Under the pieces are notes generated by a model. That model did not search any database, was not told the DNA's origin, and was given only the letters and a program-made list of their open reading frames with translations. From an uncultured Cytophagales bacterium (GTDB taxonomy: Bacteria; Bacteroidota; Bacteroidia; Cytophagales; Thermonemataceae), in NCBI GenBank assembly GCA_938002655.1, contig CALLAC010000001.1:124001-188000 (forward strand): a DNA stretch of 64,000 nt, read 5' to 3'. The first letter of the stretch is position 1. Each line of letters starts with the position of its first letter. This document shows, one piece after another, positions 54,738 to 64,000 of the stretch. The position numbers and the translations under genes were made by a program.

Positions 54738-55163
54738 TTATTTTTCTTTCTTAAAGCGTTCCCATTTGATAAGCATAAATTTATCACCAATCTCTGTGAT
54801 TATCATTCCTGCTCCTTTCAAATTTGTAGCATTTTGCATAAATTCTGTTAGTTCCTGATGGTTGAAAATTCGATAAGTAGGGTGATATTCGTAATTTTCG
54901 GGAGCTTTAATTCTATATTTGCGTACCCAGTTCATCACCGAAACGTGGCTTACACCTAAAATTCGTTCAATTTCACGATAACTTATGCCCTCTAAATGAA
55001 GTTGCAAAGCCTTTACTACATAATAGCTATCAATTTGTTTACCTTGTTTCTGAACTGTAAAGAAATAGTTGCAATCTTTACAGCGAAATCGTTGCCTTTG
55101 GGCTACAATACCACTTTTTATCACATTGAGCGAGTTGCAACGAGGGCAATGTTTTTTGGGCAT
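54738..55163 (-). CDS. IS1 InsA-like zinc-ribbon/HTH protein lacking a DDE domain
   Basis: A 141-residue protein. Residues 1-35 form an IS1-type zinc ribbon (CPRCNS ... [10 protein letters not shown], two CxxC pairs). Residues about 45-85 form an HTH ([20 protein letters not shown]), as in InsA/transposase N-termini. The last about 55 residues ([20 protein letters not shown] then [13 protein letters not shown]) are not a DDE catalytic domain. No terminal inverted repeats or target-site duplications were found around it. It may be a domesticated DNA-binding regulator. It lies next to tRNA-Ser. Confidence 0.8.
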
Positions 55164-62901: not shown

Positions 62902-64000
62902 ATGATTTTGGCTGAAAGCAGTCTGAAAAGCGAAAAAGGCTTACAAAACCCTTTCAATCAGGACTATGTGTTGGAGTTTTCGTGCTCGCAGGGGCATTTG
63001 TGGCTTGTAGCCGATGGTGAAGGTGAAAACTTGCGTGGTGTACAAGCCTCGCGTCTTTTGGCAGACACTATTCGCAGTTTTATTGAAGACAACAAAATCT
63101 CCAATAGCCACGATTTGCTTCGGAAAGCAATTATCAGAGCAAATGAAATTTTACACAAGAAAATGCTTTTTGCCGAAGGAGCAATGGTTTTTCAGCAAGG
63201 AAATCAGGTTTTGATAGCTACTTTTGGCAAAAACAAAGCTTTACTGTGGAAGAATAGAAATTTACAAGAAATCCAAAATACCAATCCTGTTTTGGGACAA
63301 CAGGCGGTTATTCAACCCAATATTACGGCTCTACCTATACAGAAAAATACACAAATTTTACTTTTGAGCAAAGGAGCCTTTTTAGGCTTGAATTTTGAAC
63401 TCATCAAAAATATTTTACAAGGTAAACAAAATCTTCAAGAAAAAGTAGAAAATTTGATAAAGGCTTCCTTGCAGTCGCAAAACAAAGAAAATAGCAGTAT
63501 TGCTCTCATTTACTTCCCCCAAGAGCGTTTCTTGCAAATTGTCCGGAGAATTTGGAAACCTATTCAGCCTTTTGCAGTGCCTGTATTATTTTTGGCAATG
63601 GTTGCTACTTTTGTGATTATTACACAAAAAAGCCACCTGCAAGGAGTAGAGCAAGTAGAAAATGAGCAAATTCAGTTTCAGAGGGCAAAAGAAAAGAAAC
63701 GCCGCATGGAAGATAGTCTTGCCCAAGTAGATAAAGCCAAAGATGTAATTATTAAGCACAAAGTACAAAAAGGTGAAACAATTGGCATCATTGCACGCAA
63801 ATACAACTCTACCGTAGAAGCTCTAATTTCTTTGAATAATTTAGACAATAAGGCAAATATTGCCGTAGGACAAGAAATAAAAGTAAACGTAAAAATGATT
63901 TACACACTTTCCAAAGCTCAGACCCTGGAAAGTTTGTACAATGAACGATTCAAACGTTGGGAAAAATTGGGGGTTACCATAGAAAGTATACAGAAAGCAA
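62902..64000 (+). CDS. PP2C-like / TM / LysM protein, 5' part (cut by window edge)
   Basis: The frame is open from the ATG at 62902 to the last base, 366 codons. Residues about 1-210 look like a diverged PP2C phosphatase (LWLVADGEGENLRGVQASRLL), but the metal motif DGMGG reads DGEGE and the later Asp motifs are not seen, so catalysis is doubtful. A membrane helix follows (about 228-243, AVPVLFLAMVATFVII), then a charged linker and a LysM domain (KVQKGETIGIIARKYNSTVE, about 289-336). The orientation implies a cytoplasmic pseudo-phosphatase linked to a peptidoglycan-binding outer part. More lies beyond the edge. Confidence 0.75.
   Translation, partial: MILAESSLKSEKGLQNPFNQDYVLEFSCSQGHLWLVADGEGENLRGVQASRLLADTIRSFIEDNKISNSHDLLRKAIIRANEILHKKMLFAEGAMVFQQGNQVLIATFGKNKALLWKNRNLQEIQNTNPVLGQQAVIQPNITALPIQKNTQILLLSKGAFLGLNFELIKNILQGKQNLQEKVENLIKASLQSQNKENSSIALIYFPQERFLQIVRRIWKPIQPFAVPVLFLAMVATFVIITQKSHLQGVEQVENEQIQFQRAKEKKRRMEDSLAQVDKAKDVIIKHKVQKGETIGIIARKYNSTVEALISLNNLDNKANIAVGQEIKVNVKMIYTLSKAQTLESLYNERFKRWEKLGVTIESIQKA

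Follow-up and report, generated by a model that had tools for sequence, protein, structure and literature searches.

A PP2C-like LysM gene at the window edge

We examined a gene that runs off the end of the window, by which we mean the whole stretch of 64,000 nucleotides that was analysed. It starts with an ATG at position 62902 on the plus strand, and its frame, as given in the ORF list, is open through the window end. In the host genome, which is that of a Raineya species, the frame (L007:3903-5078) continues past the window edge for the last 25 codons and the stop, to about position 64077, and encodes a protein of 391 aa. The frame proposed in the earlier note, which was made from the window sequence alone, was thus borne out, and its extension reached the stop codon rather than breaking just past the window, as that note had allowed for. 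The following features were identified:

62902..64000, plus strand: gene for a protein with a pseudo-PP2C domain, a transmembrane helix and LysM (ORF, full frame L007:3903-5078, orthologs)
62902..63522, plus strand: PP2C-fold domain, almost certainly inactive, residues 1-207, predicted cytoplasmic (AlphaFold2 model, PP2C fold match, motif table)
63013..63027, plus strand: DGEGE (residues 38-42) replacing DGMGG, metal-binding Asp38-Gly39 retained (alignment, motif table)
63226..63237, plus strand: GKNK (residues 109-112) replacing GDSR, third-metal Asp changed to Lys110 (alignment, motif table)
63277..63294, plus strand: flap deletion point, with 4 residues left where intact relatives have a substrate flap of 29 (alignment, residue count)
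63367..63375, plus strand: SKG (residues 156-158) replacing SDG, binuclear-metal Asp changed to Lys157 (alignment, motif table)
63481..63492, plus strand: NKEN (residues 194-197) replacing GTDN, Asp changed to Glu196, Tyr in G056 (alignment, motif table)
63568..63624, plus strand: single transmembrane helix, residues 223-241, predicted N-in/C-out (hydropathy 2.34, flanking charges)
63757..63885, plus strand: LysM domain 1, residues 286-328, predicted periplasmic (Pfam PF01476, 1.2e-12)
63901..64000, plus strand: divergent second LysM-like repeat, residues about 334-391, running beyond the window (alignments)

The protein consists, in this order, of a PP2C-like half (residues 1-207), the helix at 223-241, a charged linker, LysM at 286-328 and a second LysM-like repeat. 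Four basic residues are present in the 15 positions before the helix and one in the 15 after it, so an N-in/C-out orientation is consistent with the charges. On the full 391-aa protein, PF01476 matched the first LysM domain at 9.1e-14, and the LysM scores of 48-51.6 bits lie well above the cut-off of 20.9. The second repeat, which contains the family-conserved FKRWEKLGVT according to the alignments, gave a weak LysM match over residues 356-386 (4.6e-4), under the profile cut-off. The layout read earlier from the letters, a PP2C half joined through one membrane helix to LysM, is upheld by the fold model, by hydropathy and charges, and by Pfam.

Orthologs of identical length and architecture were found at 87% identity in Raineya orbicola SPSPC-11 and at 83% identity in Raineya sp. 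SKYG86, and other family members in Thermonema rossianum and in an uncultured Cytophagales MAG. Raineya and Thermonema, the carriers of the dead form, are hot-spring bacteria, and the dead state of the PP2C domain is also present in the isolate genomes of R. orbicola and T. rossianum.

The PP2C fold and the loss of its catalytic residues

By sequence, the PP2C half is a distant member of its superfamily. In Pfam, it matched SpoIIE at 2e-4 and PP2C_2 at 7e-4, both under the cut-offs, while the NCBIfam Stp1 model gave 1e-15 and 58 bits, far from the curated cut-off of 230 bits for the Stp1/IreP equivalog (NF033484), and tPphA was matched at 1.3e-6. A structural model was built with AlphaFold2 from 5 related sequences and has a pLDDT of 71.5. 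Over residues 1-208, it showed the alpha-beta-beta-alpha sandwich of the PP2C/PPM fold and matched PP2C structures with VIA Z of 22-24; with Stp1 of S. agalactiae (2pk0), VIA Z was 23.9 and the rmsd 2.5 A over 199 aligned residues. Foldseek matched the model to tPphA with an E value of 2e-12. The structure prediction that the earlier note had called for thus returned a PP2C fold, and not the absence of one.

That note had taken DGEGE as the sign of an inactive domain. We rejected this argument, since the metal-binding residues of the motif, D38 and G39, are intact; what points to inactivity is the state of the other motifs and the loss of most of the flap. Among the motifs with the catalytic Asp set (DG, GDSR, SDG and GGxDN), D38-G39 alone is kept, and Lys110, Lys157 and Glu196 (Tyr in G056) stand in place of Asp, so that the metal-binding Asp residues are not all present. 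The GTT motif is also lost, the phosphate-binding Arg of motif 1 is replaced by N, K, S or A, and the substrate flap, located between the DHS and RALG motifs, has 4 residues instead of 29. All these changes are common to four genomes of the Raineya clade, with identities as low as 50%, and the motif losses are fixed in them as well as in two Thermonema genomes, where further residues are lost, including the Gly of DG. Outside Raineya and Thermonema, the catalytic Asp residues were kept in every complete ortholog with an intact frame that we examined, and the flap had 29 residues in all examined orthologs; a flap of only 4-8 residues was confined to the six Raineya/Thermonema genomes.

Could the domain still be an enzyme with altered metal chemistry? 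D21, D38 and G39 are retained, and in three species a Glu (Glu196) occupies the position of the lost DN Asp. Against this, Lys is found at both the SDG and the GDSR Asp positions in 4 of 4 Raineya-clade sequences, the phosphate-binding Arg and the flap are missing, and the DN Asp is Tyr in G056, and we consider such an enzyme very improbable. The inactivity of the domain is well supported, and judging by its residues it is almost certainly catalytically dead.

Selection on the dead domain

dN/dS was estimated by the Nei-Gojobori method between Raineya species, with G000 vs G025 as the pair for the controls. The values, which are rough because synonymous sites are partly saturated, ranged over 0.048-0.064 in the dead PP2C domain and over 0.042-0.068 in the LysM part, against 0.10-0.17 in the helix and linker. 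The controls YidC and dxr gave 0.047 and 0.054, respectively, and an intact PP2C of the same Raineya genomes gave 0.118 (G000 vs G025). The dead PP2C domain is thus clearly under strong purifying selection, with no sign of drift. With its catalytic residues lost and its fold both retained and selected, it can be called a pseudophosphatase.

It is improbable that the protein is a simple wall anchor that needs no more than its LysM ectodomain and membrane helix and carries the PP2C domain along as a passive remnant. This would agree with LysM being the part that profiles recognise best and with catalytic residues that were free to change; however, the PP2C domain was as strongly constrained as the LysM part (0.064 and 0.068) and more strongly than the helix-linker stretch (0.159), and its fold is retained in the model. 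A decaying pseudogene or an assembly artefact is hardly credible and was rejected: copies can decay, as a paralogous C-terminal fragment on host contig C40 indicates, but the full-length frame of the window gene is conserved in isolate genomes, with a dN/dS of 0.07-0.08. The C40 fragment itself (L008:501-773) shares 69-70% identity with the LysM-bearing end of the window protein and lies just upstream of sucA, in divergent orientation; it seems to be what is left of an additional copy.

An ancestral operon in the relatives

In G083 (L062:4014-8316), an intact PP2C-TM-LysM gene is followed directly by a gene for a kinase-like domain, a transmembrane helix and LysM, and then by an intact Hanks kinase. 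The same order, PP2C(-LysM), LysM pseudokinase and Hanks-type kinase, was found in G031, G047, G102, G152 and G160, which belong to another Cytophagales family (f15); for G031, G047 and G102, the profile used gave no LysM match in the C-terminal part of the PP2C protein. The third kinase looks active in G083, G031, G047, G102 and G160, and is dead in G152, where the PP2C is intact. The PP2C gene of the G160 operon (L075:8050-9503) is split by a frame change, either a sequencing error or decay. In family f5 (L065, L077, L162 and L163), an intact PP2C-LysM gene adjoins a Hanks kinase and the middle gene is absent. FHA proteins are encoded upstream at several of the PP2C-LysM/kinase loci.

The window protein matched the module phosphatase profile, of which it is itself one row, at an E value of 5e-159, and its G083 and Thermonema homologs by sequence at 1e-45 to 1e-28; both kinase-like partners are present in its genome. 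It is well supported that the window gene descends from the phosphatase gene of an ancient signalling module of the envelope, whose other members were the LysM pseudokinase and the Hanks kinase. Of the earlier proposal of a cytoplasmic pseudophosphatase tied through one helix to a LysM ectodomain, the description stood, with fold, motif loss, topology and selection in its favour. The accompanying claim, that this was opposite in logic to LysM/PASTA kinases, was not supported, because the intact copy in the relatives shares one operon with the LysM pseudokinase and the Hanks kinase, which makes PP2C-LysM a part of a kinase-phosphatase module.

The partner kinases and the coupled loss of catalysis

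The middle gene of the module encodes a kinase-like protein with two LysM repeats, in which the HRD Asp was missing in 19 of 19 members checked. In Raineya (L010:5055-6323, host contig C8, adjoining dxr), HRD has become HPA and the DFG Asp is absent. By these signatures it is a long-standing pseudokinase family. Full-length members were present in 22 of the 241 genomes of the order, with that of G061 counted from profile position 81; a coarser scan of 395 phylum genomes, in which 4 candidates per genome were scored, so that rare cases may have escaped, gave at the cut-offs used no full-length LysM pseudokinase or PP2C-LysM protein outside the window's own genome.

The third kinase of Raineya (L082:5723-7108) has HLH for HRD and no glycine loop, and keeps the VAIK Lys and DFG. 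In Thermonema it is dead as well (HGA, HFG), and across the six phosphatase-dead genomes the signatures are HLH/HLN and HGA. It is also dead in G152 and in G111, an 81%-complete genome in which PP2C-LysM was not found. Within the sample, a dead phosphatase occurs only together with a dead partner kinase, and the converse is not strict (G152). This fits a phosphatase that would have become idle once its kinase no longer worked; the coupled loss is a pattern and not a statistical proof, since independent events are few (one or two for the phosphatase). The intact kinase of the relatives carries a C-terminal domain that differs from LysM.

All three module genes were kept in 6 of 6 Raineya/Thermonema genomes, the third gene of G097 being cut by the contig end. 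They are adjacent in G083 and in several f15 genomes; in Raineya they are not, and lie at three loci (C1, C8 and C10).

As for the number of losses, the PP2C tree joined Raineya and Thermonema (99/99), with a warning of long branches, and the kinase-LysM tree weakly preferred Thermonema with G083. The MutS tree did not resolve between one loss and two, and for the LysM half the AU test did not discriminate either. The two genera share a neighbourhood of PP2C-LysM, polyprenyl synthetase, a 262-275 aa gene and an Era-like GTPase. From this common neighbourhood and the similar loss of the flap, we favour one event, short of proof.

Comparison with known systems

The window protein resembles PP2C (PPM) phosphatases of the Stp1/PstP/tPphA type in its fold over residues 1-208 and, in the relatives, in its partnership with a Hanks kinase gene, but it lacks the metal Asp residues, the phosphate-binding Arg and the flap, and has a LysM ectodomain added. 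In PASTA kinases with an Stp1 partner (PknB/PstP type), a wall-binding ectodomain is coupled to a cytoplasmic Hanks/PP2C system. The module described here has the same ingredients, with LysM on the phosphatase and on the pseudokinase.

No description of a bacterial pseudophosphatase with a PP2C fold was found in the literature searched; eukaryotic ones have been described. Among these, TAB1 and PHLPP2 likewise have a PPM fold with lost metal-coordinating residues; both have been described as holding a single metal, in the M2 site, and a scaffold role was proposed for PHLPP2 (PMC12002173). Both are eukaryotic, whereas the window protein comes from a bacterium, spans the membrane, carries LysM, has two metal-ligand Asp residues changed to Lys and the flap deleted, and has partner kinases that look dead as well. 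Bacterial membrane pseudokinases, EssB/YukC and MviN, were reviewed in 2025 (PMC12599244). They share with the window protein that they are membrane proteins with dead signalling domains in envelope processes; they are of the kinase type and the window protein is of the phosphatase type. The text of that review contains neither LysM nor Bacteroid*, and in the open-licence literature no paper was found on LysM, PP2C and a pseudokinase in one architecture in Bacteroidetes/Cytophagales, nor on the combination of LysM, eSTK and PASTA. The LysM pseudokinase family is apparently undescribed.

A possible role of the protein

We lean towards the window protein being a catalysis-free, wall-anchored adaptor, formerly the phosphatase of the module, in a Raineya/Thermonema lineage in which the phosphatase and the third kinase both lost catalysis. 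The mechanism we infer is that the LysM repeats would bind the glycan strands of peptidoglycan in the periplasm, and that the pseudo-PP2C domain would keep the docking surface that formerly contacted the kinase partners and bind both pseudokinases. Through such domain contacts, the three dead proteins could join into a wall-anchored adaptor, which would transmit or hold position without phosphorylation, for example by recruiting cytosolic or envelope machinery. More tentatively, a complete kinase-pseudokinase-phosphatase envelope module may have lost the catalysis of its cognate kinase and phosphatase and been kept as a peptidoglycan-tethered complex of three pseudoenzymes that works without phosphorylation. 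The findings suggest that a whole signalling module now serves as a structure or adaptor attached to the cell wall. The scattering of the three genes in Raineya and the sub-threshold score of the second LysM-like repeat count against the adaptor reading.

On the other hand, the protein could be a regulator that binds an active Hanks kinase or phospho-substrates, by TAB1-like activation or by shielding of substrates, perhaps with an intact STPK/PP2C pair encoded elsewhere in the genome. Raineya keeps a separate intact PP2C (L009:4499-5734) paired with an STPK, as well as a homolog of FHA-VWA type, and therefore the dead protein could still serve a phosphorylation circuit; TAB1 is a precedent of a PP2C pseudophosphatase that binds a kinase, and PHLPP2 may still bind substrate although its activity is lost (PMC12002173). 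The substrate flap is missing, however, and the three dead proteins are also kept in Thermonema, where the Pkinase scan gave no canonical HRD Hanks kinase and no canonical STPK/PP2C pair. Besides the dead kinases, that scan gave an HGD/DFD kinase adjoining a PP2C and UbiB-like matches, and in G070 also IGD/DLD kinase fragments. As the module persists in Thermonema without a canonical pair, we regard the regulatory role as unlikely, and prefer the wall-anchored adaptor.

Close relatives that carry the same gene set with catalysis present or absent offer a natural comparison, by which non-catalytic roles of kinases and phosphatases become directly testable in the bacterial envelope. The comparison also exposes the LysM pseudokinase family, dead in every sampled member.

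Neighbouring genes and other observations

No firm function was indicated by the genes neighbouring the pseudo-PP2C-LysM gene. In three Raineya genomes, the next gene downstream has the same orientation, lies 8-82 bases away and encodes a homolog of PorP/SprF (type IX secretion); we take this as a lead towards envelope machinery and not as evidence of function. In the host, this homolog (L007:5098-6045) lies directly downstream of the window gene. A TPR-PD40-OmpA (PorE-like) gene is also near it (L007:10685-12676), and a homolog of the latter is present in G111 (L074:1412-2932), where it adjoins the dead third kinase.

On host contig C32, one gene (L011:2142-3596) encodes a protein in which two FHA domains are combined with a hydrophobic stretch and a trypsin-like peptidase, and a multi-LysM protein is encoded near it (L011:4137-5282). 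Within the window, positions 54738-55163 encode a small zinc-ribbon/HTH protein that, by eye, resembles the N-terminal region of an IS1-type transposase. Its counterpart in R. orbicola lies near the same genes and is 92% conserved, and the protein is possibly domesticated.
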